In this document: piece by piece, positions 6,202 through 38,247 of the stretch | How positions within the stretch are numbered: position 1 is the first letter of the stretch | Layout: each line of letters opens with the position of its first letter | Source of the DNA: Myxococcales bacterium | Lineage (GTDB): Bacteria > Myxococcota_A > Polyangia > Fen-1088 | NCBI GenBank assembly: GCA_003153015.1 | Contig: PMBS01000137.1 | Location: forward strand, 1-38,303 | Direction: 5' to 3' | Length of the DNA: 38,303 bases | The notes under the pieces: generated by a model | Told to the model about the DNA's origin: nothing | What the model saw: only the letters and a program-made list of their open reading frames with translations | Database searches by the model: none | Made by a program: the position numbers and the translations under genes

Positions 6202-6745
6202 AATGCCTCCCTGGCTGAGTTTCCGCGCACACGCGACCCTCCAGCCGGATCGCCATACTAATGTGATACGCTTTTCCACTGCCGTCAACGGATAGGGTCT
6301 GGAGCCAGTGCCGACATCACGGTGACCTGGACTAGTCTCGGAATGACATCTACCTCTGCCACTGTGCGCGACCTCCGGTCCCACACCGATCTAGTTTCCA
6401 TCGCCACCCAGTACACGGCCACGGTTGCGTCGCGCGGCGTGGTCATGCTCAAGGTGGTAGGCAGTTGACTCTGCGCCGCTCGATAACGCACGTTGTTCTT
6501 CGCCTTTCGCGGCACCTGCGCGCGACCCGGTCTGCGAAGCACGTGAGCCTCACGGATACACCGGCATCACTGCAACCACTTGAAATCATTGTCAGTATCT
6601 CTCGCTGCAGGGAAGCCGGAGGGGATGAGGCAATTTGGGGGTCTGAGAAGCCCGATTTGCACTTGCCTTAGCCGGCGGCTCCGTGATAGCAATTTCGTCC
6701 GTGCGTTCTTTTGCACGAAATGCTAGCCGTTGTGTGAGGCGAACC
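6202..6745. other. Intergenic stretch with no convincing gene
   Basis: A 544-base gap between the divergent fibro-slime gene and a small plus-strand lipoprotein gene. Short open frames exist on both strands (for example 85 codons on the minus strand, 6285-6542), but none has a ribosome site, recognisable domain or signal peptide. It should contain the promoters of both flanking genes; no clear -35/-10 pair was found. Confidence 0.5.
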
Positions 6746-7000
6746 ATGAACTTCTCTAGGGTAGTCTTGTGCGTAGTACTGTCGGCCGGTGCATTGCTGG
6801 GTTCCTCCTGTTCTTCTGACGAGCCGACATGCCTATCGACTGGCATTACCTGTGAGAAGAACAAGAGCGACGTAGAAGCGTGCTGCAATAGCGGCGCGAC
6901 GCAGTGCGAGTACGTGGTCGGCACCAAGCACTACCCGTGCAGCGGGACCGACTGCAACGCGGCGGCAGGCACCGTACAAAGCGACTGCACAAGCCATTGA
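6746..7000 (+). CDS. Small Cys-rich lipoprotein
   Basis: 84 residues from ATG 6746, preceded by GAGGCG. The frame is open upstream but the signal peptide begins here: MNFSRVVLCVVLSAGALLGSSC has a positively charged start, a hydrophobic core and a lipobox-like LGSSC. The mature part has eight cysteines (the lipobox Cys, then T-C-L, I-T-C, A-C-C, Q-C-E, P-C-S, D-C-N, D-C-T), so a small disulfide-stabilised fold is expected. No family recognised. The next gene starts 9 bases downstream on the same strand, suggesting an operon. Confidence 0.65.
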   Translation: MNFSRVVLCVVLSAGALLGSSCSSDEPTCLSTGITCEKNKSDVEACCNSGATQCEYVVGTKHYPCSGTDCNAAAGTVQSDCTSH

Positions 7001-7008
7001 GGTAGCGC

Positions 7009-7476
7009 GTGAGGCTTGCTCGGGGCCTCTTGCTGGCGGCGGGTCTGTCAGCGTTTCCGATGATGGGTGTTGTGGCCGTGCTGCTTTGGGGGCCCGCGGA
7101 TTCAAGACCGCGTCTTGAGGCGGCGGCGGATGCGGAGTACTCCAGCGAGCCTCCCAATCCGTCTGCCGAGGCACCTACTCGGCCAAGAGCGCGCACACGT
7201 CCACCGACTGAGAAACCGCCGTTTCGGCTGGAGTTGCATCCGTCGATCTCCCATCCAGCGGCGAATCCTCCTGCCATTGCCACTCCGGCTGACAACTGGG
7301 TTGATCCCGCAGAGATCCATAGAAATGTGGCGTCCCTACAACTGAGAGAGGCCTTCCGGGAAAAGAGTGGGGACATGATCGGAGCCGAGAACTCGCGCAA
7401 GCAAATCGCGGAGCTGAAGGCCCGCCTGCCAGCAGATCCCGTGGCCGACGCCGCCGGCAGTGCAGTCCGTAACTGA
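7009..7476 (+). CDS. Hypothetical single-span membrane protein
   Basis: 155 residues from GTG 7009, preceded by GAGGTAGC and only 9 bases after the previous stop. Residues 5-28 (RGLLLAAGLSAFPMMGVVAVLLWG) form one membrane helix or uncleaved signal. A Pro/Arg-rich linker follows (PRARTRPPTEKPP), then a charged helical tail (PAEIHRNVASLQLREAFREKSGDMIGAENSRKQIAELKARLP) that looks like a short coiled coil. No family recognised. It probably forms a small operon with the Cys-rich lipoprotein. Confidence 0.6.
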   Translation: MRLARGLLLAAGLSAFPMMGVVAVLLWGPADSRPRLEAAADAEYSSEPPNPSAEAPTRPRARTRPPTEKPPFRLELHPSISHPAANPPAIATPADNWVDPAEIHRNVASLQLREAFREKSGDMIGAENSRKQIAELKARLPADPVADAAGSAVRN

Positions 7477-7514
7477 CGCCGGAATCGTCGCCACGGTTGT
7501 CGCCGATTCCGGCG
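7477..7514. terminator. Perfect 11-bp inverted repeat between convergent genes
   Basis: CGCCGGAATCG at 7477-7487 is the exact reverse complement of CGATTCCGGCG at 7504-7514, with a 16-base loop. It starts on the base after the stop of the plus-strand gene and sits 26 bases beyond the stop of the convergent GH59 gene. There is no T-run, so it would be a Rho-assisted or RNA-stabilising hairpin rather than a classic intrinsic terminator. Confidence 0.55.
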
Positions 7515-7540
7515 CTCAGAACTTCACCTCAGGAATTTGG

Positions 7541-10165
7541 TCACAGATGGGTGCGGCGCCGATCATGGCGGAGCAGTGCGGTCCCGGCGAGGATGACGAA
7601 CAGGACCAGTCCCGCTCCGTGGTCGTTCGTGCTGCCTATGCTGCACGAACCGGCAGAAGACGCCTTCTGGGTGGTTCCGGCGTCGCCCTGCCCACTGGAT
7701 CCGCCTTGGCCGGGTGTGCCGGGGGTCCCGCCTGCGCCGGGGCTTCCACCTGTGCCGATGATTCCGCCGGTGCCGGGACTTCCACCTGTGCCGATGGTTC
7801 CGCCCCTGCCGGGGATCCCTCCCGTGCTAGTAGGGCTTCCACCCGTGCCGGGGCTCCCACCTGTGCCTGGGCTTCCGCCCGTGCCGGACATCCCGCCGGT
7901 GGTGGTGGTCCCGCCGGTGCTGGGGCTGAGGCTCCCGCCAACGCCGGGGCTTCCGCCAGCGCGGGTGATCCCACCGGTGGCAGTGATTCCACCGGTCCCC
8001 ATGGCTCCGCCTGTGCCAGTGTTGCCACCAGTGCGGGTGGTTCCGCCCGTGCCAGTGGTTCCACCGCTGCCAGGGGCTCCACCAGAACCGGTGCTGCCGC
8101 CGGTGCCCGTACTTCCACCTGCGCCGCCGTCGGGCGGACTTTGACCGTCCTGGGGGAAAACCGTCGGAGCGGGCTTGGCCCCGTTCACGGTGTTGACGAT
8201 CAGGTTGTCGAACAAAGCGGTGGTCTTCGCCGCGGTGCCGAGCCCGACGTTGCCTTTGGAGTACTTGCTATCCGTAGCCGACAAGACCTGTGTGCCGTCG
8301 ACCGAACCCTTGATCGATGTGCCCTGGAAGACCAGCTTCATGTTGTGCCAGCTACCCGCGGCCAGGGTTGCCTGCCCAGTCGCGATGGCCGCACCCGCGC
8401 CACCTCCGGTGGACGATGCATACAAGCTGCAGGCGCCACTAGGACTCAGCGTCATATAGTACGCGTTTGGATTGGTGCCGTAGCCGGTTCCCGTCGAGCT
8501 GATTCTCCCCAACAGCGACGCCCAGCCCGAAGTGGTCTCTATCGAGACGTCGGCGCTGACCTCATAGTCCGTCCAGGCGGTATTGCCCACGATGGTGTAC
8601 GGATTAGTTTCGGGAGCCCAACTCTGCGCCGGCTGACTCACCACCTGTCGCAGACAGTTTCCAGTTCCATCCGCACGCTTGAAGAGTTCGAACCCACCCG
8701 CGATGTCGTTGTGGTAGTACGGCCGGTAGCCGACCGTCTTGAAGTCAGCGTAGTGATCGTACGTCTCGTAGTAGGGCATCGGGAAGGTCGCCGCCGCCGG
8801 TGCTGTCGCCGCGCCCTTCTGCTGGCCAGTTGTCGTGCTGATCGTGTAGATCGAATTCGCATCGAGGGCCACGGTGAACGACCCGTTGACCGGGGTGACG
8901 TCCGCCTGCTTCTGGAACTGCGCAGTCGAATTGCTACGCCAAACCGAAACCGTCCCGGTCGAAAGGCCGCCCGTGACGTTGAACGTGACATTCTTTGTCG
9001 CCGTGGCACCTGACGTCTGCGCGATGACCGTGTAGTCGCCACCACCAGGAGCCACCATGGTGACGTAGTTTCCACCACCCGAAAAGTTTCCGCACGCGGC
9101 GTCCAGATATTTCCAGCCCACCTTGGTGAACTGACCCACGTGGGCATAGCCCCACAGCGCAGGATTGATCGTATAATTGCCGCTCCAGGGAGAGCTCGCA
9201 ACCCCCATGGTCACATCGTAGAACGGCTCGTTCGAATAGTACGCGGTGATGAGATACCAATATATGGTCTTCGTGATCTTGCTATTGACGTAGTTGAAAT
9301 TGAACGCGCTGACGATGTCGATTGCGCACTGAAACCCGTGCTCGTACACGTGCTCTTCGGTGTCCCAGATTGGCTTGCCGATGGCGATGACGTTCGCGGG
9401 TGGCGGGGTTCCGTTGGTCGAGCCATATGACGCCGTGGTGTGGCTACCGATGGCATATACCGCAGCCTTCAAGGTAGCGTCGGTGTTCATCCCGGTGGCC
9501 CAGTTCCAGCTCGTGCTTCCCCAGTTGTCAAAGGCGTGGATGCCGACGCTGGTGAGGCCGTTCTTGTCCAGGGTGGGGCGGAATATGGTCTTCAGCCAGC
9601 TCGTGTTGTCGCCCTTTTCGTTCCGGCACCCAATGTAGTTGATGTCGAGGCCATGGGCGGACTTCGCGCCCATGATCCACTTGGACAAGTAGTCAGCCGT
9701 GTCTTGCGACCAGAAGTTGCCATTGCCGACCCACGCCGGGGCCGACCAGGCCGCGGAATCCAGCACGACGAGCGGGTTCCGTTTCCTTGCCTCTTCCATC
9801 AGCCACCACTCGTAGCCACGGTCGTAGTTCTCATCCGTCTTCGAATGCATGTGGCTCAGCTCCGAGCCCTGGGTCGAATTCCCATCACCAGGTATTTCGA
9901 CATACAGTTCCTGCAAGGCTGCCCCGTAATTCGGCTTGAAAAGGTAGTCGAGAATCTGCGTGCGCTGGGGCTCGACGTAGTCCCTGAGCAGGGGGGAGGT
10001 TGCACCGCCGCCGGTCACGGCGCCGATTCCGTCATAAGTGCGCCCAGCGCCCGCGCCGTCGATCGTGATGGTCTGGGCAAGAGCGTCGACACTGCTGCCC
10101 AGACACCACGCGACCGAGACCACCGGAAGCAGAGCAATTGCGACGCGCTTGCTGGCAGCAGTCAT
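7541..10165 (-). CDS. GH59 galactosylceramidase-like glycosidase with MYXO-CTERM tail
   Basis: 874 residues; ATG 10165 follows GGAGG. Signal peptide 1-30 (ends VDALAQ). Residues about 35-345 closely resemble galactocerebrosidase (GH59): TYDGIGAVTGGGATSPLLRDY, QILDYLFKPNYGAALQ, DENYDRGYEWWLMEEARKRNP, LDINYIG-x-RNEKG. The acid/base Glu is E183 (NEKG) and the nucleophile is E270 (WDTEE), aligned to the family's NER and SSED glutamates. A beta-sandwich follows to about 460, then a laminin/concanavalin-like domain to about 680 (SGWASLLGRIS, NMKLVFQGTSIKGSVDG), then about 150 residues of GTGGS linker. The last 34 residues show C841, a hydrophobic helix and RRR, a MYXO-CTERM-like sorting signal. Known activity of the family is removal of beta-galactose from galactosylceramide and related galactosides; the natural substrate here is unknown. 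Likely surface-anchored and then released. Confidence 0.9.
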   Translation of the reverse strand: MTAASKRVAIALLPVVSVAWCLGSSVDALAQTITIDGAGAGRTYDGIGAVTGGGATSPLLRDYVEPQRTQILDYLFKPNYGAALQELYVEIPGDGNSTQGSELSHMHSKTDENYDRGYEWWLMEEARKRNPLVVLDSAAWSAPAWVGNGNFWSQDTADYLSKWIMGAKSAHGLDINYIGCRNEKGDNTSWLKTIFRPTLDKNGLTSVGIHAFDNWGSTSWNWATGMNTDATLKAAVYAIGSHTTASYGSTNGTPPPANVIAIGKPIWDTEEHVYEHGFQCAIDIVSAFNFNYVNSKITKTIYWYLITAYYSNEPFYDVTMGVASSPWSGNYTINPALWGYAHVGQFTKVGWKYLDAACGNFSGGGNYVTMVAPGGGDYTVIAQTSGATATKNVTFNVTGGLSTGTVSVWRSNSTAQFQKQADVTPVNGSFTVALDANSIYTISTTTGQQKGAATAPAAATFPMPYYETYDHYADFKTVGYRPYYHNDIAGGFELFKRADGTGNCLRQVVSQPAQSWAPETNPYTIVGNTAWTDYEVSADVSIETTSGWASLLGRISSTGTGYGTNPNAYYMTLSPSGACSLYASSTGGGAGAAIATGQATLAAGSWHNMKLVFQGTSIKGSVDGTQVLSATDSKYSKGNVGLGTAAKTTALFDNLIVNTVNGAKPAPTVFPQDGQSPPDGGAGGSTGTGGSTGSGGAPGSGGTTGTGGTTRTGGNTGTGGAMGTGGITATGGITRAGGSPGVGGSLSPSTGGTTTTGGMSGTGGSPGTGGSPGTGGSPTSTGGIPGRGGTIGTGGSPGTGGIIGTGGSPGAGGTPGTPGQGGSSGQGDAGTTQKASSAGSCSIGSTNDHGAGLVLFVILAGTALLRHDRRRTHL

Positions 10166-23871: not shown

Positions 23872-24004
23872 CGTCTTGGAACGGGGACCACACCTCGGAT
23901 GCGCGGCAGCGTAGCTCGCCTCCTCACAAAGACCCGCCCGCCCTGGAGGCACTGGCAGCGAATTGCATCTACATGCGCTGCGGCGTAAGATCCCATATCG
24001 CGGA

Positions 24005-25594
24005 ATGCCCAAGACCGGCAAGGCCCCCTCCCGTCCGTTGACGATCTACCTCCTCAAGGCAGGACACACGCCGGAGACTGCGGTCAAGGATCTCGGCAAG
24101 CTGCGGAAATTCTCTGTCGGTGAGAACGGCAGCATCGGTGATTTGTACTTGAGTGTGGCACCCGCCCGCCCGCCGCGATGGGTCTCTCTCTTCCGGGGCG
24201 CTACTTCGCCTGAGCTGCCTGTTCTCCTCGGGAGTCCGCCGTCCGGGGTCTTGCTGATTGAGAACGGCGGGCATTTCTTTGCCCTGACCTTTGGGTATGG
24301 CCGTCATCTCATCATGCCCGGAACCTACGAGGAAAACTTCGGCCTCATTGTCACGCTGAATAGCGTCCCGGGCGACCGCATCCGTAGCATCGACGTCACA
24401 TCGTTCGACGCGATTTCCAGCCACTCACGGACTCAGGCCAGCCGGGAGGGCTCCATCCGCGAATTCGGGATGGACATCGAGCAGGACCTCCTTCGTGCGG
24501 TCACCGGCACGCCTGCTGACACGACACTTGGAGCCCGCCTTACCGGCATGGACGCCTTGCATACTGTTGTTCAGGTCAACCTCTGTGACCTACCAGCGCT
24601 CCTGGGGCGCTACTACGAGCGGCATCAGGACCAGGGATACAAGACTCTCTATCCTTGGATCGACCAGATCGCCGAAGTTCGGGACAGTGCACGCCGAGCC
24701 AAGCTCGACGACGCGCTCGTAGACAGGCTTCGCAGGGGCAACCTCGACCGCTTGTGGCTGGCCGTGCCTGAAATCCTCGACTGGACTGACGTCGGAGGCT
24801 TCCGTTACTCACGGACCTCCGGGGACGGCCTACACCTCGACCTCCACGCGAGGGACTTCCTGGCCACGCTCAGGGATCCGACAGCGCTCACGACTGACTG
24901 CCTGCGGACCGAGCGTGTACGTTGCTTTTCCGCCTCGACGGATATGCCCAGAGAAACCTGGACCGTCTACCAGTGCGTCTACTGCGAAATCGACGAGGGT
25001 GGTGAGATGTATCTCCTGTCAGCCGGCAGGTGGTACCGTGTCGCGAAGAGCTTCGTGTCGGACGTGAACGCCGCGATTGGCAGACTTGCGCTGGTTGATG
25101 AGCCACTGCCCGCCTACGAAGCTGGGGACAGAACCGAGGGCGACTACAACAGACGCATCGCCGCCGGCGATCCCGCGCACTACGCGCTCATGGACGCCAA
25201 GATGATCGAGTATGGTGGTGGGAAGAGCACCATCGAGTTCTGTGACCTCTTCACCAAGGACCGCCGGATGATCCATGTGAAGCGCTACTCCGGCTCCAGT
25301 ACCCTCAGCCATCTGTTTGCCCAGGGCGAGTTGTCCGGAAATCTCTTTGTAGCGGAGAAGACGTTCCGGGAAAAGGTGATAGCCAAGCTTCCCGCTTCAC
25401 ACAGAGACCTTGTGCCCACGAAGCGGCCCGCACCAGATACGTTCGAGGTGATGTTCTGTGTGGTCAGCCGATCGAAGAAGCCCATCGCGGAGGCGCTGCC
25501 CTTCTTCAGTCGGCTGAACTTGCGTAACAGGGCGCGAGTTCTGGCGAACTACGGGTACCGGGTCAGTCTTGCAAAAATCCAAGCATCCAGCTGA
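24005..25594 (+). CDS. TIGR04141/DUF6119 family protein
   Basis: 529 residues from ATG 24005. The start MPKTGKAPSRPLTIYLLKAGHTPETAVKDL, then LSVAPARPPRWVSLFRG, and then GVLLIENGGHFFALTFGYGRHLIMPGTYEENFGLIVTLNSV-x-x-D-x-I-x-S-x-D are the hallmarks of the sporadically distributed TIGR04141 family (DUF6119). Later conserved parts are HTVVQVNLCDLPALLGRYYERH, ILDWTDVGGFRYSR, WTVYQCVYCEIDEGGEMYLLSAGRWYRVAKSF, FCDLFTKDRRMIHVKRYSGSSTLSHLFAQGELSGNLF. Members occur irregularly in genomes and near mobile or defence genes; biochemical function is not established. It is divergent from the RHH-like regulator and probably under the same operators. Start chosen because the family motif begins there; the frame is open 14 codons further. 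Confidence 0.8.
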   Translation: MPKTGKAPSRPLTIYLLKAGHTPETAVKDLGKLRKFSVGENGSIGDLYLSVAPARPPRWVSLFRGATSPELPVLLGSPPSGVLLIENGGHFFALTFGYGRHLIMPGTYEENFGLIVTLNSVPGDRIRSIDVTSFDAISSHSRTQASREGSIREFGMDIEQDLLRAVTGTPADTTLGARLTGMDALHTVVQVNLCDLPALLGRYYERHQDQGYKTLYPWIDQIAEVRDSARRAKLDDALVDRLRRGNLDRLWLAVPEILDWTDVGGFRYSRTSGDGLHLDLHARDFLATLRDPTALTTDCLRTERVRCFSASTDMPRETWTVYQCVYCEIDEGGEMYLLSAGRWYRVAKSFVSDVNAAIGRLALVDEPLPAYEAGDRTEGDYNRRIAAGDPAHYALMDAKMIEYGGGKSTIEFCDLFTKDRRMIHVKRYSGSSTLSHLFAQGELSGNLFVAEKTFREKVIAKLPASHRDLVPTKRPAPDTFEVMFCVVSRSKKPIAEALPFFSRLNLRNRARVLANYGYRVSLAKIQASS

Positions 25595-26927: not shown

Positions 26928-28769
26928 GTGCGTAAGCTGCAATACTACTTCTCGGATCGTCGTCTCGTTGCGCTGCTCTGCCGGAAACGGATCGCGCTTG
27001 CGAGGAAGAACCGTCGAGTTCAGTTCGTGGCTCGCGCGTCTGGCGGGACGGTCGACTCCGAGCAAGATGAACTGCAGACACTCCTGCCCCCACGTGGACA
27101 TTGGCCTCGCCCCCGGCGACGAGCACGCTGCGAATCCCCAGATCCCCCCGCAACTGTAGCCAAGACGCTGGCCTGGCATGTGCTTCGGGTGGTCTCAGGA
27201 AAGCAGGCCACGTATTCCTGGGCAAAACGCCTTCGCCGTTTTCTGGACGACTGCCGGCACGAGGCGCTCTCGTGGGACAGGTCGAAGGTCCACAAGGCCA
27301 GACGCGTCGTTGCCATCCCGAAGGAACGGCCGGGAAACGGCCAGACGTACAGAGTCGTGGTGACCTACTCCCTGCGCGACAGCTTGATTGCTAGCGGGTT
27401 TGCCGCCTACCTGGGTGCGGCCATCGATGGCGCGTTGGACGATTGTTGCTTTGCATTCAGACCGGTCCGGAATGGAGAAGCGAGGACCCACCACGACGCA
27501 GTGGACGGCTTCCGAGTATTTGCCAGCCAGATCGCCAAGGGAACCGATCTCTGGGTCGCGGAATGCGACATCCAGGGATTCTTCGACTCGGTTCCGCACA
27601 AGGTGGCGAGGGCTCGGCTTCGCGCCATGGCGGCGAAGACGGGGACAACGTTGGACGAGCGAGCCATTGCGTTCCTCCGTTCATTCCTGACTGGCTACAA
27701 CTACGCGTCGGCGCGGAAGAAGGCGATCAAGCAACTTCGAGTGCAACACGTGGACAGGCCTATCCTGTTCGACCCGGACGCAGCTTTGGCCGATGTGGGG
27801 GACAAGATTGTCGACCGGGGAAAGCGCGGCATCCCACAGGGATCACCACTGTCCGGCGTGCTCGCGAATGCCATCTTGGCAGCCGCGGACGAACGTTGCG
27901 TGAAGAAGCTTCGCCGCAATGGACGGTCCCACTACGCAAGGTACTGCGACGACGTTCTTCTGGTCAGCACGAACCGGGAGTCTTGCCGTTCGGCCCTCGA
28001 CGCGTATGTGCGTAAACTTGGCAAGCTTGGTTTGGCGCACCACCCGCCTCATACCGTCCGCCGCTACTGGGGGCGAAACATGAGGCGCTTCTGGGAGGAG
28101 AAGTCCAAGCTGCCATATCGTTGGCGCTCGACAGGACGTGCGCTGGGCGTTCCGTGGGTCGGCTTTCTCGGCTATCAGTTCAAGCGTGACGGTACGCTGC
28201 GAATCCGGCAGGCGTCGATTCGGCGCGAGATCGCCAAGCAACGGAAGATCGTGGACGATGTCCTCAGGAGCATGCAGACCGCGGCGCGCGCCCAGCGTGC
28301 GCGCGGGATCGCTCACAAGATTCCGCCCACGCACAGGATCGAGCACAAGGTCCGGATGCACTTGGTCGCGATCGGCGTTGGGTACCCATCGGAACATGGC
28401 ACGAGCCCATCTTCCTCGTCGCTGAGCTGGTGCAAAGCGTACCCCCTGTTGCGAAGTGGGCCGGTAGAGCTTCAGCCGCTGAAAGACCTCGATCGGGGCC
28501 GCACCTCCGCCATGAAAGCCCTTCGCGGGAGACTGACCACCCTGGTGAACACGTCGAAGGACATAGTGGAGTGCACCTCGACGCCCGCGGCTCGAAGGCC
28601 ATTTGGGCTACACTACGTCGGTCACTCGTTGAGCTACCACGGCCAATTCCTACCCGCCCGAAGGACTACCGCTACGCCGGTCACACCTGTTTCAACCCGA
28701 GGTGGTTCGGTTTCTGCCCGCGCCAAAGGAATCACGCCCAAAAGGGGGCGACACACATGTCCAAGATGA
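26928..28769 (+). CDS. Reverse transcriptase (unassigned, DRT/unknown-group-like)
   Basis: 613 residues from GTG 26928; start uncertain since no ATG or clear site lies nearby. Motif order: fingers VVAIPKERPGNGQTYRVV and DDCCFAFRPVRNG; motif A ECDIQGFFDS with D214; motif B GIPQGSPLSGVLANAIL (301-317); motif C ARYCDDVLLV with D341 and D342; motif D region WVGFLGYQF (410-418). The catalytic aspartates are intact. No group II intron maturase X domain or HNH endonuclease is evident, and the retron NAxxH and VTG motifs are absent. Residues about 420-540 are basic thumb-like helices; the last 60 are low-complexity and may not be part of the fold. The structured leader upstream and the defence neighbourhood suggest a defence-associated RT. 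Template, product and effector are unknown. Confidence 0.8.
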   Translation: MRKLQYYFSDRRLVALLCRKRIALARKNRRVQFVARASGGTVDSEQDELQTLLPPRGHWPRPRRRARCESPDPPATVAKTLAWHVLRVVSGKQATYSWAKRLRRFLDDCRHEALSWDRSKVHKARRVVAIPKERPGNGQTYRVVVTYSLRDSLIASGFAAYLGAAIDGALDDCCFAFRPVRNGEARTHHDAVDGFRVFASQIAKGTDLWVAECDIQGFFDSVPHKVARARLRAMAAKTGTTLDERAIAFLRSFLTGYNYASARKKAIKQLRVQHVDRPILFDPDAALADVGDKIVDRGKRGIPQGSPLSGVLANAILAAADERCVKKLRRNGRSHYARYCDDVLLVSTNRESCRSALDAYVRKLGKLGLAHHPPHTVRRYWGRNMRRFWEEKSKLPYRWRSTGRALGVPWVGFLGYQFKRDGTLRIRQASIRREIAKQRKIVDDVLRSMQTAARAQRARGIAHKIPPTHRIEHKVRMHLVAIGVGYPSEHGTSPSSSSLSWCKAYPLLRSGPVELQPLKDLDRGRTSAMKALRGRLTTLVNTSKDIVECTSTPAARRPFGLHYVGHSLSYHGQFLPARRTTATPVTPVSTRGGSVSARAKGITPKRGRHTCPR

Positions 28770-30485: not shown

Positions 30486-32795
30486 ATGAGCGCACGTCTT
30501 CTCTTCTCTGCGATCGAGATCCGTTTCGCCGCCCAGGACTTCACCGGCGCGCTAATTCCGTATGAAAGCGACGACGCCTTTCATACTCTGCGGAAGCGAA
30601 CCGACCTACTTGCGTACCGGCGTCGCGGTAGGCCGGAGGACCCGCAGGTGCTCGTCGTTCCGACGACGAACGCTCCATGCGAGGAGATCACGTTCGGCCC
30701 GCTGCCGGTGAAGGACAACCTTCGCGCGCTCGCGCGCTTCATCGAAGATCGCCTTGTCGACCTGCTGCCGAAGTTCGAGCTTCGGCGAACGCGATGGGGC
30801 GTGGATCGGATCCGTCGGAAGGACGACCTTCTTGACGCTGCGTTTGGGCACATGCGCCGCCCGCGTCCCGATCGGCTCGCTGGCTTCCACAAGTTCCACC
30901 GGACAACGTTCCGCGTGCGCCACGAGCACCTGCCGGGTCGTGGTGGCTTGCTCGTGCTAACCGTCGAGTTCCAGCGGCACCAGGAAATCGAACCGACGAT
31001 CGCGGAACTTGCCGGACGTGGTTTCAACTTGAACGGCCTCGAAGTGTTCGCGAGGAAAGAGGGGACGCCGAAGGTTTGGCTCGGCGAGATCTTTCACGCC
31101 GAAGGCGAGACCGTCACGGTGAACGATGGCACGCACGAGGCAACTCTCGACGGGCGCTCTCACCACGTCGAACCATCGACAGAAACCTTCACGACGCTCT
31201 TCGAGCAAGCGCTTGGTCGTGACGGGTACGACGATCTTCAACGCGCCGAGTGGGCTCTCCGAGCGAAGGAGGTTTGTGGCCGAGGCTACGTCGATCGCCT
31301 GGAGCAGGTTGCTGACCACCTTCGGAAAGCCGGCACGCTCTCCGTCGCGCCAGGCATTGCGATTAGCTTCGGTGACATCGTGGCCCTGAGCACGAGCGGG
31401 CGCACGCCATCGGCGATCCAGCTCCCGGACGTGGAGTATTGCTTCTCTTGGGATCGCACGAACATTCACCGGTATCCGGCACGTGGTCTCGACATGTTCG
31501 GCCCATTCGATGGCACGACGTTCGACACGAAGGAGCCGACCGTGCTCGTGGTGTGCCCATCCGATGCCCGAAATGATGTCGACCACTTTGTTCGCAAGTT
31601 GCGCGATGGCGTCGGTGGCGATACGTCACCACGCTTCGGTCGTGGGCTGGTGGGCATCTACCGCTTGACGCGCATCAACACACGCTTCGCCACCGTGAAC
31701 CTCCCGACGAACGGTCCCGTCGGGCAGCTCTACATTGACGTGCTCCGTGATCAGCTCGGAGGGGAGCGAGCGCCGGACATCGTGCTCGTCGTCGTCCGTG
31801 ATCAGGACGCCTTCGTCGATGCCGACAACCCGTACTGGCGTGCGAAGGCATTCCTCCTCGCACAAGGCATCCCCTCGCAAGAGGTTCGCCTCTCCGTGGT
31901 GAGGAGCCGGCCGTCGCAGGTCCCCTACATCCTGGAGAACATCGCGGTCGCCATCTACGCGAAGCTCGGCGGGTCTCCGTGGACGATCCGACCGACGCTT
32001 CCGCTGACGAAGGAGGTCGTCATCGGTATGTCACACGCGCAGTTCGGCGGCCGTTACTCCCCGCTTCGTCGCATCATGGGGATCACAACCGTGTTCAGCA
32101 GCGACGGCACCTACCTGCTCGCTGCCGGATCGCAGCGGTGCGAATACGAGAAGTACCCGGAGGCACTTGCCAACTCGGTCCGCGAGACGCTTTCACGGCT
32201 GGCGAAGGAACAGGGGTGGACGGCTGGCGACGTGGTGCGTCTCGTGTTCCACGCGCCGAAGCCGCTGACAGGAACCGAGATCGGCATGCTTGCGAAGATC
32301 GCCGTGCAGACGCTTGGCGAAGGCATCCAGTTCGAGAGCGCATTCCTGACGATCGAGCGAGATCACCCCTTCAAGGTTGTCGCACCGGACGAGAGGGGGC
32401 GACAGATGTTCGTCGAGCGGTTCGACGGGACTTCCGGAAAGGCGACCGTTGGCGAGTGCGCACCTCACCGAGGGCTTGTCGTTGATCTCGGGAGGACGAA
32501 GAGGCTGCTCTGCGTGAACGGTCCGCTCCTCATGAAGCGCGAGGGTGAGTCGATTCCACAACCGCTCCAGATCACGCTGCACAAGGATTCGACATACAGC
32601 GACATGACGGCGCTCACTCGACAGGTGTTCCATTTCACCGGCCTGTCGTGGCGCTCGATGCTCCCGGTAACTGAGCCCGTCACGATCTTCTACCCGCATC
32701 TGATCGCGGACAAACTCATGCGACTGTCGCCCCTCTCGGACTGGGACGACAAACTCCTCGACACGCGACTCCGGCGAAGTAGGTGGTTCCTGTGA
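30486..32795 (+). CDS. Long prokaryotic Argonaute, predicted catalytically inactive
   Basis: 769 residues from ATG 30486. The MID domain is recognisable: DIVLVVVRDQDAF, then Y450 and K454 (NPYWRAKAFLLAQGIPSQEV, with Q465), and K493 in ILENIAVAIYAKLGGSPWTI, the residues that hold a guide 5' phosphate. The PIWI domain follows (about 505-769): VVIGMSHAQFGG replaces the usual G-I-D, so the first catalytic Asp is absent (M515). RLVFHAPKPLTGTEI stands where active proteins have R-D-G, so the third acidic residue is also missing. The family end is clear: PLQITLHKDSTYSDMTALTRQVFHFTGLSWRSMLPVTEPVTIFYPHLIADKLMRL. A N-terminal lobe and PAZ-like region occupy 1-340. This fits long-B Argonautes, which bind guides, do not cut, and activate a partner. 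Its stop overlaps the nucleosidase start by four bases. Confidence 0.88.
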   Translation: MSARLLFSAIEIRFAAQDFTGALIPYESDDAFHTLRKRTDLLAYRRRGRPEDPQVLVVPTTNAPCEEITFGPLPVKDNLRALARFIEDRLVDLLPKFELRRTRWGVDRIRRKDDLLDAAFGHMRRPRPDRLAGFHKFHRTTFRVRHEHLPGRGGLLVLTVEFQRHQEIEPTIAELAGRGFNLNGLEVFARKEGTPKVWLGEIFHAEGETVTVNDGTHEATLDGRSHHVEPSTETFTTLFEQALGRDGYDDLQRAEWALRAKEVCGRGYVDRLEQVADHLRKAGTLSVAPGIAISFGDIVALSTSGRTPSAIQLPDVEYCFSWDRTNIHRYPARGLDMFGPFDGTTFDTKEPTVLVVCPSDARNDVDHFVRKLRDGVGGDTSPRFGRGLVGIYRLTRINTRFATVNLPTNGPVGQLYIDVLRDQLGGERAPDIVLVVVRDQDAFVDADNPYWRAKAFLLAQGIPSQEVRLSVVRSRPSQVPYILENIAVAIYAKLGGSPWTIRPTLPLTKEVVIGMSHAQFGGRYSPLRRIMGITTVFSSDGTYLLAAGSQRCEYEKYPEALANSVRETLSRLAKEQGWTAGDVVRLVFHAPKPLTGTEIGMLAKIAVQTLGEGIQFESAFLTIERDHPFKVVAPDERGRQMFVERFDGTSGKATVGECAPHRGLVVDLGRTKRLLCVNGPLLMKREGESIPQPLQITLHKDSTYSDMTALTRQVFHFTGLSWRSMLPVTEPVTIFYPHLIADKLMRLSPLSDWDDKLLDTRLRRSRWFL

Positions 32796-34621
32796 CAGCC
32801 GCCTCGACGTTTGCGCTCGACTGGGTGAAATCGCTCAGACGCGTAGTGATCTCCGATGCTCGTGAGCTTGGGGATGTCCGGCGCAACGCGGCTGCTTTCC
32901 TCGCGAGGAGGGCTGGGGACCGACGTTCATCGTTTGAGCGCAATCTGCGGCCCTCGCTTGACGCCACGAGGTTCACCGAGGTGCCATACCTCGCGTCGAT
33001 CGGGTACTTGATAGCGGCCGGTGTTCTCCTTCATCCCCCGATCGACGATCTTCGGAAATCGCTGGAAAAGACCGTTCGTCGTGCCGCCCACACGGTCGAG
33101 CGAAGCGGATATGCCGACGATGCCCTCTGCGCCTGCGGTCTCCTTCTTCTCGCGCGGGCCGTGAACAGCGCGTCCACCGTCGCCAGCATCGATGCGAACC
33201 TGAACAACATGCTCGCCTCCGATGCTTCGATGGCCTGCATCGCCACGGTGACCCTTGGGACGCCGGTTCGAGCTTCCTTTGCACTCGACCGGGATTCGGT
33301 GGAGCAGCTTGCGGTGGCGGTTCTTCTGCACCGGATAGACGACGGTCTCGCTCGAAAGCTCTTCCCCGGCTTTCCAGCCGACGTTGAGGGGCACCTGCTT
33401 GCCTTGCTTGCGAAGCACACGTACTCGCCAGCCGCCGATCTCGCATCGATGCTCGTCCTTGCGGCAATAGAGGCGAGGGTTGCCGTGTCGGATGACGAGC
33501 TGCCCGCTGCCGATGGTCGCTGTGATCTTGGAATCGTTGTTGCACTCAAGGAGGAGTTTCGGATCCTTTTCGAGCGATTCGAGCACCGGCACACGCACGT
33601 CGAAGATGGCGGACGCTCGTACTACATCTTCGACGTGGGCTCGCTCGCAGGGGAGCGCCCCTCTCGGTGTGTGGCAACTCTGGTCGGCGAGATGGGCACG
33701 AACCGTACTGGCGTCGTGACCGAGAAGATGCTCGCCCGTTGGGATCCATCCGTCATCGCGGTCGTCGGAATCGCCGGAGGTATCCACAAAGACGTTCGCT
33801 TGGGCGATGTCATCATCGCATCCGAGGTCTCGAACTACGTAGAGGGCGCTAAGGCCGTCGACGGCGCGTCAGGCACGTCGTTCGATCGAGCCAGCGACTC
33901 GTTCAAGCCGAGGCACCTCCTCCTCGACCGTGTGCGTAACTTTGAGTTCGCGAGCCGCACGAGCTTCCAGAAATGGGAGACCACCTGCGAGAGGAGATGT
34001 GCGGCTCTTGGCGTTGATGTCGAGCCTCTGCGGAAGAGCGAGCTCCTTCCCGCGAAACCTGCCCAACTGGAGGGGCACGTAGCTAGCGGCCCGGCCGTCG
34101 TCACGTCTAGCGCGTTCGTCGCGTGGATTCGCGGCGGTGATCGCACGTGCTTGTGCGTGGAGATGGAGTCTGGTGGTGCGATGATCACGGGCCATATGGA
34201 TCCTTCGCAGCGAGACGTGATCGTGATCCGCTCGATCTCAGACCTCGCTGACGAGCGGAAGGCCGTGCTTGACAAGATCGGCGGTGGCGCGCTCCGTCGG
34301 TACGCGATGGAGAACGCGCTCGACTTTCTGTGGGCTCTCATCGAGGCTGGTGTTCTGCCGAGAGGTCCCGACGACGTTGCGCAAGAGCCGAATAGGACGA
34401 GACCCGAGACAACCGAGGAAGTGCTCCTTCGTGTGCTTCACGAGCACGCCGACGAGAACGGCGAGGTCACCACAAGCTGGGCGGAGATCCGCAGGTGGCT
34501 CGGTGGCACGACCGCCGACGTGCATGCCGCCGCAATCCATTTGAAGGACGACGGGCACTTTCGGTCCCAGATGTTCGAGGGTGGGCCTGACGGCATGTGC
34601 AACGTTGTGCTTCGTCGATAG
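32792..34621 (+). CDS. PNP/MTAN-family nucleosidase, predicted Argonaute effector
   Basis: 609 residues from GTG 32792, overlapping the Argonaute stop as GTGA, with AGGTGG five bases before; GTG 32783 is less likely. Residues 1-240 are an unrecognised helical domain. Residues about 243-515 are a nucleoside phosphorylase/nucleosidase fold: LGIVVALKEEFRILFE with E254/E255 (the MTAN catalytic Glu position), GEMGTNRTG (ribose/phosphate loop), VIAVVGIAGGIHKDVRLGDVIIASEV, CVEMESGGAMI with E457-M458-E459 (ribose binding), and IRSISDLADE with D484, the purine-protonating Asp. All signature residues are intact. Residues about 540-609 look like a winged helix (TSWAEIRRWLGGTTADVHAAAIHLKDDGHF). Enzymes of this fold cleave N-glycosidic bonds; PNP-type effectors in other anti-phage systems destroy ATP. 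Here activation by the Argonaute is inferred from coupling. Confidence 0.88.
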   Translation: MTAASTFALDWVKSLRRVVISDARELGDVRRNAAAFLARRAGDRRSSFERNLRPSLDATRFTEVPYLASIGYLIAAGVLLHPPIDDLRKSLEKTVRRAAHTVERSGYADDALCACGLLLLARAVNSASTVASIDANLNNMLASDASMACIATVTLGTPVRASFALDRDSVEQLAVAVLLHRIDDGLARKLFPGFPADVEGHLLALLAKHTYSPAADLASMLVLAAIEARVAVSDDELPAADGRCDLGIVVALKEEFRILFERFEHRHTHVEDGGRSYYIFDVGSLAGERPSRCVATLVGEMGTNRTGVVTEKMLARWDPSVIAVVGIAGGIHKDVRLGDVIIASEVSNYVEGAKAVDGASGTSFDRASDSFKPRHLLLDRVRNFEFASRTSFQKWETTCERRCAALGVDVEPLRKSELLPAKPAQLEGHVASGPAVVTSSAFVAWIRGGDRTCLCVEMESGGAMITGHMDPSQRDVIVIRSISDLADERKAVLDKIGGGALRRYAMENALDFLWALIEAGVLPRGPDDVAQEPNRTRPETTEEVLLRVLHEHADENGEVTTSWAEIRRWLGGTTADVHAAAIHLKDDGHFRSQMFEGGPDGMCNVVLRR

Positions 34622-34671: not shown

Positions 34672-37600
34672 TCACCCCACGACTTCCAAGAACTCCGCGA
34701 TCACTCGGATCTCCCCATCCGCGCGTCGCATCCGCATCGGTTTGAAATCGGGGTTGTCGGGGCGCAGTTCAACCTCCTGCACGCCGCCGTCGGTGCCAAT
34801 CTTGACCACGTGCCAGCGTTTCAGGGTGTAGCTGCCGCCGTGCTCAGGATCAGCGGCCTCGCGTAGCTGAACGACAACGCGGCGGCCGTCGAGCGCTGTG
34901 GCTGCGGGGGCTGCACCGCCGGGGAACAGGCGGAACAAGGCCCAGCTCCCATCCGGGATGAGCGTTTCCATGGAGTGGCCCACCACCTTGGCCACGAAGG
35001 TTCGCTTGTCGAGAGCGTGCTGGGAGTGACGGATCTTGGCCCAGCCAGTGACTTCTGGCGCCTGCGATTCGCCAAACCCACCGGCTGCCGCCGCCAGATC
35101 GTGGACGGGCGCGGCTGTGCGGAACTGGTCGGCGGCTGGAACACTGTCCACCACCTCCAGCTTGGCTTCCCGGCCAAGCAGCGGCTCCATGTCCGGCAGC
35201 AGCGGCAGACTTTCCAGGTGGCGCATCAGATCTGAGATCTCCCGTCGCGATTGCTGGCCCCACCAGGTGATGTCCTTCCGCCCTGCGGGCTCGTTCTCCA
35301 GCAGCATGAGGTAGTGCCAGGGCTCCTTGTCGAACTCGGTCAGAAGCTCGCAGTAGCGCTGACCGCGCCGGGCCTTCTCCTTGTCGCGATCGTCGAAGCG
35401 GCCTTTCACCTCGATGATGAAGTTGTGGAAGACCTCGCCGATGCGGGCACGGGCGATGAAATCCGGGTAGTAGTGCGACAGCAACCCCTGCCAGTCGTAC
35501 TCGATGCAGTACCCGACGCCGCTGCGGTGGTTGTAGACCCAGCCGGTCACGTCCTTGGCCTCGTCCAACAGCCTTGCGACCGCCTCCTCGTCGTCATTCT
35601 CGACGGCTGCCCGGTCAAAGCAGCTCTTCTTGGGGGCGTCCACCACGTGCTTCTTCAGCGCCTGGTAGCCGGCGATCTCATCGGTCTTCCGCTCGGAGAG
35701 CTGGGCCTCGGTGGCGCGTCGTTCGGCCGTGATCGCCTCCTGCAAGCACGGCAACAACGCCTTCTTCACGGCGGCGATCACATCGGCCCGTGCCAGGTTG
35801 CCCAGTGCGATGCGTGCGTGTGGCCCTTCCGGAATGCGATCGAAATAGAGGGGTAGGCCCATGGGCAGGTTGAACGTCTTGCGCTCCAGGAACTCGCGCA
35901 CCACGCCCTTCACCGCCGTCTTGTGGTGGAAGCTGGTGCGCAGGTCGCGCAGAATGGGCACAGCAATCGCCATCTCAATCACGTGGTCAAAGTCGCGGTA
36001 GGAGGGCACCTCCGGAATCACAAACTCCAGCCCATCTTTCTCGGTCTGGCCCAACGCCTCTTTGAGGTAGGTGCGGATCTCGGTGTCGGCGATCTCTTCC
36101 AGCCAGGCCAGGCGTGGCGACAGCGCCGGCACGCGCTCCATGTCGAATGACTTGCGCCAGTCGGGCACCACCTCGCGCAGCCCCTCGAAACGCACCAGGC
36201 GCACGCCGTTGGCTTCGCGCTCGGTCAGATCGGCCCTCTGCAAAACGGGCACGTACTCGCGGGTGTGCTCGATCTCGTCCGAGGACTTCTCCTCGATGAT
36301 GTCCTTGATCTGATCGATGATGCTGCGGAACGAGGGGTGCTCGATGACGTAGAGATCCTCGGTCTTCATGGACGAGCCGCCCTCTTCGTCGATGATGGGC
36401 GGGTGCATCTTGCGCAGACCGCGACCCAGGGTCTGCTCGGTCAGGGTGCGCGAGTCGCAGGGTCGCAGCGGCACAATGACCTTCACGTTCCGGACGTCCC
36501 AGCCCTCCTTGAGCATCATCACGCTGACCACGACGTTGTAGGGGTTGGGCTCCATGACCTGCTGGCCCTGGCTGTCCAGCGCCGGCATCCCGCTGTCGTC
36601 GAGCTTCGGGATCTCGTCGTGGTCCACGGCATTGACCGAGCGCCGAACGGCATCCCATGCGTCCTCGTTGCGTTCTTCCTTCTCGCCGATGTGGATCTCG
36701 ACCACCGTGGACCGCGCTACGCCACCGCTCTTGTCCACGAACAGCGCGGCCTTGCCATCCTGGTAACCCGTGACTGGCCGTCCCTCCAGATCGTCTCTCG
36801 CGGCTTCGCCGTAGCGCAAAAAGTTGGCCACCTCACGCGCCTCGTTCCGGTCGTTCGACAGGATGAACAGAATGGGCTTGCGCTGGTCGCCTTCGTCTTC
36901 GAGCTGCGCCTTGACCTTCTTCCACCGCTCGATGCCGGTGACCAGCAAGTTGCGGTACTTCTCCCAGGCGTTTGGTTGGCCATCGCGGATGTGCGGCTCG
37001 ATCGCGCCGGTCTTCTTGTTGCGGACCTCCACCCGCTCCAGCACCGGCCTCTTGACGATGCCGTCACGAATTGCGTCGGCTAGCGGGTAGTACACGCAGG
37101 TGTGCCGGAACAGATCTGCGGGTTTGAATTCCTTGCCCGACTTCTTGCCTACCTTGGTGGTGGCTGCGCCCGCCTCCTCGAATAGCGTCGCCGAAAGGTC
37201 GACCTGCAAGGCGACGCGCCCAGGCGCCTGCTTGTCGCCGTTCAATCGGCGGATCGAGCGAATCCACGCCATATCCTTCGCCGCCTCATCGTCCTTGGTA
37301 ACGAGCGCCCTTTCTTTCGCTTTCTGCTCAAACTTGGCCTGCCCAGTCTCGTCCCAGACGTGGTGGGCCTCGTCGTTCAGCACAAGCAAGCCACGCGAAC
37401 GGCTGAATCGCTCGATAAGCGGGGACGACACGGCCTCCAGCCGCTCGGGCTCGCCGGCCTGGAATAGCAGCTCCATCTGCCGCTCTTGCCACTGCGCCAG
37501 CGTAGGCGACACTTCCCGCTCACGCAGAAGCTGGTGGAAATTGGTGACCACCAGGGCGCCCTCGTTGGGTGGCAGGCTGCGCGGACAGGTTTCGGGATTG

Positions 37601-38247
37601 TAGACCTTCAGGTTGAAGTCGCGCTCGAAGGCAGGCGGCACCACTGGATCGGCGAAGAACACCGAGGTCTCGCCCGTGGGCGGCGCGAAGTCTTGCAGCA
37701 GCCGGTCCTTCACGAACAGGTTGGGCGCGATCAAGATTGCGTGCTGGCCAAAGCCCAGCTTGCTCTCGCCTTCCAGGACCGCGTTCAAATAGGCCCACGC
37801 AATGATCAGGCTCATCATCTTGGTCTTGCCCGACCCGGTGGCGAGCTGGCCGCCCAGCTTGGTCCACGGATCGCGCTGTGGACCAAGCGGCTCGACTTCG
37901 GCCAGCGTGTACAGATCCTCGGTGCGCCGGATGCCACGCACCTCGTACAGATAGATGAAGGTCTCGACCAGGCGCCGCTGATGCGGCCAGTATTTGAAGG
38001 CTCGGTTCCCGCGCAGCAGGTGCGGCTCGTGCCGGAACCAGTGCTGGAGCAAATGCATGGTCGTGTCGCTCACCGGCTGCTCGCGGTCAGAAACCGGCTG
38101 ATAGCGCGGGGCCTCGATAGGGTACGGTGCAGCTGCGCTGGCCAGCGGGAAGCCGCGCCAGGTGTCCACCAGGCGGGCAACCTCGGCGATCACGCGTGCC
38201 TGGCCCCGCAGATCCGCGATGTCGTCCGAACGGTCGAAGAGCGCCAT
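34672..38247 (-). CDS. Type III-like restriction helicase-nuclease fused to S24 peptidase domain
   Basis: 1191 residues from ATG 38247, overlapping the upstream stop as TGATG. Residues about 85-650 are an SF2 helicase: Walker A ATGSGKT (136-142), LLVLNDEAHHVW (DEAH 292-295), DLSATLF (motif III), and VVVSVMMLKEGWDVRNVKVI with TEQTLGRGLRKM (motifs V and VI). Residues about 900-980 are a PD-(D/E)XK nuclease: YYPDFIARA with D929 and FIIEVKGRF with E946-x-K948. This matches the Res subunit of type III restriction systems. The C-terminal about 120 residues are an S24 (LexA/UmuD-like) module: VVGHSMETLIPDGS with S1092 and SYTLKRW with K1143, the Ser-Lys dyad. Res is normally without this domain. Possible role: autocleavage or damage-dependent control of restriction. 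It is convergent with the nucleosidase gene, 50 bases apart. Confidence 0.87.
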   Translation of the reverse strand: MALFDRSDDIADLRGQARVIAEVARLVDTWRGFPLASAAAPYPIEAPRYQPVSDREQPVSDTTMHLLQHWFRHEPHLLRGNRAFKYWPHQRRLVETFIYLYEVRGIRRTEDLYTLAEVEPLGPQRDPWTKLGGQLATGSGKTKMMSLIIAWAYLNAVLEGESKLGFGQHAILIAPNLFVKDRLLQDFAPPTGETSVFFADPVVPPAFERDFNLKVYNPETCPRSLPPNEGALVVTNFHQLLREREVSPTLAQWQERQMELLFQAGEPERLEAVSSPLIERFSRSRGLLVLNDEAHHVWDETGQAKFEQKAKERALVTKDDEAAKDMAWIRSIRRLNGDKQAPGRVALQVDLSATLFEEAGAATTKVGKKSGKEFKPADLFRHTCVYYPLADAIRDGIVKRPVLERVEVRNKKTGAIEPHIRDGQPNAWEKYRNLLVTGIERWKKVKAQLEDEGDQRKPILFILSNDRNEAREVANFLRYGEAARDDLEGRPVTGYQDGKAALFVDKSGGVARSTVVEIHIGEKEERNEDAWDAVRRSVNAVDHDEIPKLDDSGMPALDSQGQQVMEPNPYNVVVSVMMLKEGWDVRNVKVIVPLRPCDSRTLTEQTLGRGLRKMHPPIIDEEGGSSMKTEDLYVIEHPSFRSIIDQIKDIIEEKSSDEIEHTREYVPVLQRADLTEREANGVRLVRFEGLREVVPDWRKSFDMERVPALSPRLAWLEEIADTEIRTYLKEALGQTEKDGLEFVIPEVPSYRDFDHVIEMAIAVPILRDLRTSFHHKTAVKGVVREFLERKTFNLPMGLPLYFDRIPEGPHARIALGNLARADVIAAVKKALLPCLQEAITAERRATEAQLSERKTDEIAGYQALKKHVVDAPKKSCFDRAAVENDDEEAVARLLDEAKDVTGWVYNHRSGVGYCIEYDWQGLLSHYYPDFIARARIGEVFHNFIIEVKGRFDDRDKEKARRGQRYCELLTEFDKEPWHYLMLLENEPAGRKDITWWGQQSRREISDLMRHLESLPLLPDMEPLLGREAKLEVVDSVPAADQFRTAAPVHDLAAAAGGFGESQAPEVTGWAKIRHSQHALDKRTFVAKVVGHSMETLIPDGSWALFRLFPGGAAPAATALDGRRVVVQLREAADPEHGGSYTLKRWHVVKIGTDGGVQEVELRPDNPDFKPMRMRRADGEIRVIAEFLEVVG

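Follow-up and report, generated by a model that had tools for sequence, protein, structure and literature searches.

A restriction subunit with a C-terminal S24 domain

The DNA analyzed here (the window) is an entire contig of 38,303 bases from a Myxococcales bacterium (assembly GCA_003153015.1, contig PMBS01000137.1). Close to its right end, an intact minus-strand open reading frame encodes a 1191-residue protein, which is the predicted restriction and translocation subunit (Res) of a Mod-Res, type III-like restriction-modification system, and which ends in a peptidase S24 domain of the type found in LexA (Table 1). The ResIII helicase domain (residues 134-302) scores 24.3 bits in Pfam against a gathering cut-off of 22.5, and Peptidase_S24 (PF00717, residues 1057-1185) scores 28.6 bits against 23.3. 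Between the helicase and S24 lies an intact nuclease core, YYPDF..IIEVKG, with the catalytic residues D929, E946, and K948, and its PDF..EVKG signature is invariant across 11 aligned Res homologues. A variable, 44-residue linker separates the nuclease from S24.

A first-pass annotation, made from the sequence alone, had assigned a LexA-type domain to the end of Res, with a dyad formed by S1092, within GHSM, and K1143. Both residues are found at these positions, and a LexA/UmuD-type S24 module with an intact predicted cleavage site is strongly supported by the dyad, the scissile bond, the profile, and the fold. The bonds that are cut in LexA and UmuD are A-G and C-G, and the annotation had suggested searching for such a bond between nuclease and S24; A1055-G1056 is present there, in the sequence PVHDLAAAA/GGF. 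The S24 family has been defined by the combination of the Ser-Lys pair with Ala-Gly (PMC13148647). In an alignment of 30 domains from the S24 clade of the window protein, from which a profile (A1) was built, P22, A30, G31, G65, S67, M68, and K118 are among the ten invariant columns.

A profile search of the PDB retrieves LexA with an E-value of 1.3e-4 and places A1055-G1056 on the VAA/G of LexA, Ser1092 on its GMSM motif, and Lys1143 on its Lys position. Gly1056 and Ser1092 lie 36 residues apart (34 for the E. coli protein LexA), and Ser and Lys 51 residues, within a family range of 42-53 (37 in LexA). Overall, the S24 clade has diverged from LexA to about 20% identity. For residues 1026-1191, the AlphaFold2 model reaches a mean predicted local distance difference test (pLDDT) score of 88, and its top Foldseek matches are LexA (probability 1.00) and lambda cI. 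Leading these matches are the LexA mutant 1jhe, a cleavage-favoring form, and the LexA-RecA complexes 8trg, 8gms, and 8s7g.

The domain shares with LexA, UmuD, and phage cI the fold, the Ser-Lys dyad, and an Ala/Cys-Gly bond that shortly precedes the catalytic core, but it lacks their DNA-binding or polymerase-partner domain and is attached instead to a helicase-nuclease of 1000 residues. That it belongs to a transcription repressor of the LexA type was considered and rejected, as nuclease and linker precede it and there is no adjoining helix-turn-helix (HTH) region.

The contig stops 56 bases upstream of the gene, and the preceding gene is cut. In the record L004, a relative with about 95% identity, this gene is complete (6446-9001) and encodes an 851-residue N6/N4 DNA methylase (N6_N4_Mtase), the C-terminal end of which, VFGNDGIATV, is kept in relatives. 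Because the start codon of the Res gene overlaps the upstream stop codon and the upstream gene in L004 is a methylase, the two form a Mod-Res pair. The nearest NCBIfam model, the BPTD_3080 restriction endonuclease family NF046055, scores 258.7 bits against a cut-off of 800, and PRK15483 scores 17.8 bits against 564; since these values are far under the cut-offs of the curated type III families, the enzyme is named type III-like. Type III Mod-Res systems (NF046055, PADLOC REase_III) share with it the adjoining N6/N4 methylase Mod and a superfamily 2 helicase followed by a PD-(D/E)XK nuclease, and it differs from them in carrying the S24 domain and in scoring under the NF046055 cut-off.

Table 1. 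Features of the Res-S24 gene, with positions in the window
Feature	Position	Strand	Basis
Res-S24 gene, 1191 aa	34672..38247	-	ATG start overlapping Mod stop (TGATG); Pfam and NCBIfam profiles
ResIII helicase domain, residues 134-302 (ATGSGKT Walker A; NDEAH)	37342..37848	-	Pfam
Helicase C motifs, residues 568-612	36412..36546	-	weak, under Pfam cut-off
PD-(D/E)XK nuclease region, residues 881-1000	35248..35607	-	homologue alignment
Peptidase S24 (LexA-like) domain, residues 1045-1191	34675..35115	-	Pfam, profile, AlphaFold2 model, Foldseek
Predicted scissile bond A1055-G1056 (gcc ggt)	35080..35085	-	alignment and LexA profile match
Catalytic Ser1092 (tcc) in GHSM	34972..34974	-	translation and alignments
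Catalytic Lys1143 (aaa) in TLKRW	34819..34821	-	translation and alignments
Last codons of upstream Mod gene (...VTDVFGNDGIATVQIEVK*), cut by contig end	38247..38303	-	whole in L004

Res homologues with and without S24

A survey of other genomes, also suggested in the first-pass annotation, revealed ten further Res proteins with the same architecture (L004-L011, L015, L017) and an eleventh as a fragment (L016), found in Myxococcota and in records labeled Phycisphaerae and Planctomycetota. The [A/C]-G bond, the Ser, and the Lys are all kept in nine of the ten full-length relatives. Loss of the dyad among homologues, which the annotation held to count against its proposal, is seen only in L010 (8797-12657), a Res homologue with a degenerate S24 domain from which scissile bond, Ser, and Lys have disappeared together. 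Such a joint loss is what would be expected of three sites serving one reaction, though a single case carries no statistical weight. At its C-terminus, the L010 protein has also acquired about 100 additional residues.

The ratio of nonsynonymous to synonymous substitution rates (dN/dS) of S24 between the window and L004, L011, L015, and L016 is 0.06-0.17, indicating purifying selection; it is comparable to that of the helicase (0.10-0.17), and in pairs that are further apart the linker is under looser constraint. Because of the invariant columns, the match to the LexA profile, the matching fold, and this purifying selection, the signature of scissile bond and dyad is not regarded as a product of chance.

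Other relatives, 50-53% identical (L012-L014, L019), have no S24 and either end near residue 1014 or have other sequence there, which identifies S24 as an add-on that the enzyme does not require. The Res group forms a single clade in the S24 tree, and the fusion of the window type therefore probably arose once. A viral or mobile origin of it was considered and rejected on the outcome of two scans: the one of viral contigs returned only four relatives, all without S24 (matches stop at residue 967-973), and the one of plasmids with the S24 domain returned a single match, a Schlafen-type locus of Halomonas. An assembly chimera was likewise rejected, as L004 shows the same fusion in an independent assembly.

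The S24 module on other defense enzymes

Compared with 379 genomes of the phylum, the C-terminal part of the protein retrieves, in addition to orthologues, many large proteins that match via S24 alone, at best with 35-46% identity. Surveys with the A1 profile scored only the best candidates per genome, and their counts are lower bounds. At a threshold of 1e-12, matches are found in at least 44 of 360 genomes of the window's phylum, at least 14 of 246 in the phylum of L017 (Planctomycetota), at least 10 of 248 in that of L041 (Chitinophagaceae), and at least 8 of 149 in that of L066 (Acidobacteriota); at 1e-8, they are found in at least 6 of 399 genomes in the phylum of L013 (Chromatiaceae).

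In the genomes sampled from these five phyla, the S24 clade is fused to defense enzymes. Its partners, as assigned by Pfam and PADLOC, are type I HsdR proteins of several subfamilies, type III-like Res, type IV enzymes of the phospholipase D (PLD)-helicase-DUF3427 type, Schlafen group 3 helicases, DEAD-MZB proteins of about 2000 residues that are closest to DruE of Druantia, one Eco57I-type methylase, and one GHKL ATPase. Further carriers are short, mostly XRE-like regulators, in which the HTH was judged by eye. On HsdM, HsdS, or free Mod, S24 was not seen with the same assignments; the module rides on subunits that cleave or translocate DNA, namely HsdR, Res, DruE-like proteins, and type IV enzymes.

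The combination of [A/C]-G, Ser, and Lys is kept in 84 of 91 non-identical S24 domains, a set that leaves out L010, which is under the profile threshold, and in which L136 and L137 are counted as A-G solely because of a gap in the alignment; the motif itself reads AAAAS in both. The exceptions are two PLD-DUF3427 proteins with Arg instead of Lys, L270, which has Ala-Ser, L153, from which Gly and Lys are gone, an additional S24-like reading frame in L144, and the partial alignments L169 and L251. The two residues preceding the bond (P2-P1) are AA in 78 domains. A tree of the S24 domains needs at least 27 partner changes, where the minimum would be 13, and the mixing is well supported: the S24 of HsdR L130 groups with that of the GHKL protein L135 (SH-aLRT 100), and HsdR L123, the body of which is 78% identical to L114, has an S24 that groups with L122 (SH-aLRT 95). 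From these many, well-supported changes it follows that the module was passed between enzymes repeatedly.

Individual carriers vary in architecture. In L168 (5744-9604) and L170 (4067-6985), both of the PLD-helicase-DUF3427 type, S24 keeps Cys-Gly and Ser and has Arg in place of the catalytic Lys, and it is possibly a non-cleaving or altered version. L136 (5062-7656) and L137 (5000-8056) carry S24 in the middle of a protein that has no Pfam match, with AAAAS instead of Ala-Gly at the scissile region; the gene of L136 adjoins a GHKL-like gene of 1519 residues in a large operon. In L144 (1438-2774), an S24 regulator adjoins the second, short S24-like reading frame, in which Ser is replaced by Ala (GDAM). 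L135 (3189-8664) has hsdM- and hsdS-like genes followed by the GHKL ATPase-S24 fusion in the place of HsdR. In three Pseudomonadota loci, L164 (237-3081), L165 (7053-9905), and L166 (6871-9386), a Schlafen group 3 helicase has a C-terminal S24, and a small adjoining gene appears, by eye, to encode a MazG-like nucleotide pyrophosphohydrolase; such a pair may represent an undescribed two-gene defense system.

HsdR proteins with S24 inside the nuclease

In the HsdR proteins of L246, L248, and L250, S24 is not terminal but inserted inside the HSDR_N nuclease. The order is ESEADARIAIDDLLRAAGWD...VRAEV, then S24, then GRADYVLYDQRGRPLAVIEAKK, which puts the insertion point between the first helix and the catalytic ADYVL..EAK. 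In homologues without S24 from Aromatoleum (WP_011255067) and Methylococcus (WP_205434869), the two halves are joined by 2-3 residues. Self-cleavage of the inserted form would sever the nuclease chain between the first helix and D..EAK and, because the cut falls inside the nuclease, switching the enzyme off is favored over switching it on.

A proposed built-in alleviation of restriction

Restriction enzymes put their own host at risk once damage or repair has left it with unmodified sites. The best explanation for the domain on Res, held with slightly more confidence than doubt, is an off switch that cleaves itself when triggered by RecA. A RecA-driven, self-limiting safety device is also the best-supported functional reading that the sequences offer, above all through the HsdR proteins with an internal S24. 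When host DNA is damaged or re-replicated, filaments of RecA on single-stranded DNA would form and stabilize the cleavable form of S24, in which Ser1092 and Lys1143 would cut the Ala1055-Gly1056 bond. The cut would part the Res subunit from its S24 domain and leave an enzyme ending in PVHDLAAAA, the new C-terminus of which, -LAAAA (compare -VAA of LexA and -LAA of ssrA), would target the helicase-nuclease to ClpXP. As a result, the restriction subunit bearing S24 would be removed or broken, and alleviation would be carried by the enzyme itself. Self-cleavage, the RecA trigger, the resulting inactivation, and its completion by ClpXP are all four steps that we infer.

Precedents exist for parts of this route. 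S24 autocleavage exposes C-terminal ClpXP degrons on the N-terminal fragments of LexA-like proteins; in IrvR and HdiR, which are transcription repressors, unlike Res, Ala-Gly autocleavage exposes a degron of this kind, and the same is proposed for Res (PMC7101444). E. coli alleviates restriction through ClpXP degradation of HsdR (PMC11109961, PMC12707154). Common to the alleviation of EcoKI and the switch proposed here would be a regulated proteolytic removal when damage leaves host sites unmodified; the HsdR of EcoKI has no S24 and is attacked by the protease in trans, whereas here the trigger would be the enzyme's own module. The host genome contains a canonical LexA (VAAG, GESM, VKR), as well as recA and clpX sequences, both in fragments.

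Several points weigh against a RecA-triggered off switch. The -AA ending argues only weakly for a designed degron because any LexA-type site leaves it, and it could simply be inherited. A degron cannot be the general explanation either, as the cut in the inserted HsdR leaves S24 on the larger fragment; moreover, nicked domains can stay active, so that the inserted anatomy favors inactivation without settling it. The majority of homologous Res and HsdR proteins have no S24. Finally, alleviation of EcoKI works without S24 and is independent of LexA cleavage (PMC11109961), and an S24 protein that is independent of RecA exists (IrvR; PMC7101444).

The domain might also work in the opposite direction, with S24 restraining the nuclease until RecA filaments induced by phage or damage trigger a cleavage that frees an active, possibly abortive enzyme. 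UmuD is a precedent for activation through self-cleavage, the conserved triad fits such a switch, and the DruE-like and Schlafen partners come from families linked to defense and abortive infection. This arrangement is considered rather unlikely, however, as a cut inside the nuclease fold of the inserted HsdR proteins fits breaking an enzyme better than making one, and the homologues without S24 appear to be complete enzymes.

Cleavage could instead be constitutive or respond to another cue, giving Res a short half-life and making S24 a timer or stress sensor and not a reporter of DNA damage. The divergence of the clade from LexA and its longer Ser-Lys spacing agree with this idea, as does the example of IrvR, a complete S24 protein of the LexA type that needs no RecA for its cleavage (PMC7101444), but nearly all characterized S24 proteins are RecA-responsive and the host has both recA sequences and a canonical LexA, which make a timer unlikely.

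Very unlikely is a domain that does not cleave at all and merely dimerizes Res or docks it on RecA or DNA. S24 domains do dimerize, and L168 and L170 keep the domain with Arg for Lys, as L270 does with Ala-Ser for Ala-Gly; a dimer interface, however, needs no Ser, Lys, or [A/C]-G, and these are among the most conserved positions of the 30-domain alignment and are kept in 84 of the 91 domains. An artefact, either a chimeric contig or an S24-like stretch that stands behind a Res gene by chance, has a negligible probability: although the window consists of one draft contig with its end shortly upstream of the gene, the fusion recurs in ten other records from separate assemblies, and this recurrence, the purifying selection, and the profile and fold matches already refute it.

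Extended beyond Res, the off switch would become a transferable, self-cleaving LexA-like module that couples a RecA or DNA-damage signal post-translationally to many unrelated anti-phage enzymes across phyla, a generalization for which the chances appear evenly balanced. It would then act as a general switch of bacterial DNA immunity, exchanged like a cassette among restriction enzymes of types I, III, and IV, Druantia-like and Schlafen-type helicases, and others.

Relation to previous work

Literature searches, from which subscription papers were mostly excluded, found no report of S24 fused to restriction or other anti-phage enzymes. A 2025 review of restriction-modification does not mention LexA or self-cleavage, and a paper on MORC/GHKL restriction-modification does not mention S24. 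S24 and the restriction enzyme are each known, but a description of their combination, of its intact cleavage chemistry, and of its spread over unrelated defense enzymes could not be found. If the proposal is true, a self-cleaving LexA-like module on the DNA-cutting subunits of unrelated defense enzymes would be a common, built-in answer to how restriction enzymes outside the type IA/IB group of E. coli are restrained, and the SOS signal would be tied to immunity without a transcription step.

Other features of the contig

At 30486-34621 (+), the gene of a long prokaryotic Argonaute (pAgo; PADLOC class II, 558 bits) overlaps by 13 bases with that of a 612-residue protein with a PNP_UDP domain, similar to methylthioadenosine/S-adenosylhomocysteine (MTA/SAH) nucleosidases. 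The pair is convergent with the Res-S24 gene and resembles a pAgo that acts through a nucleosidase effector. A candidate defense-associated reverse transcriptase (DRT), for which PADLOC RT_UG39 is the closest model (381 bits), is encoded at 26928-28769 (+). With the reverse transcriptase, the pAgo, and Res-S24, the right end of the contig looks like a defense island. Near the reverse transcriptase, at 23963-25594 (+), lies a gene for a TIGR04141 family protein (474 bits), a family of sporadic distribution. Further to the left, at 7541-10165 (-), the contig encodes an 873-residue glycosyl hydrolase of family 59 (galactocerebrosidase-like) with a C-terminal lectin domain.

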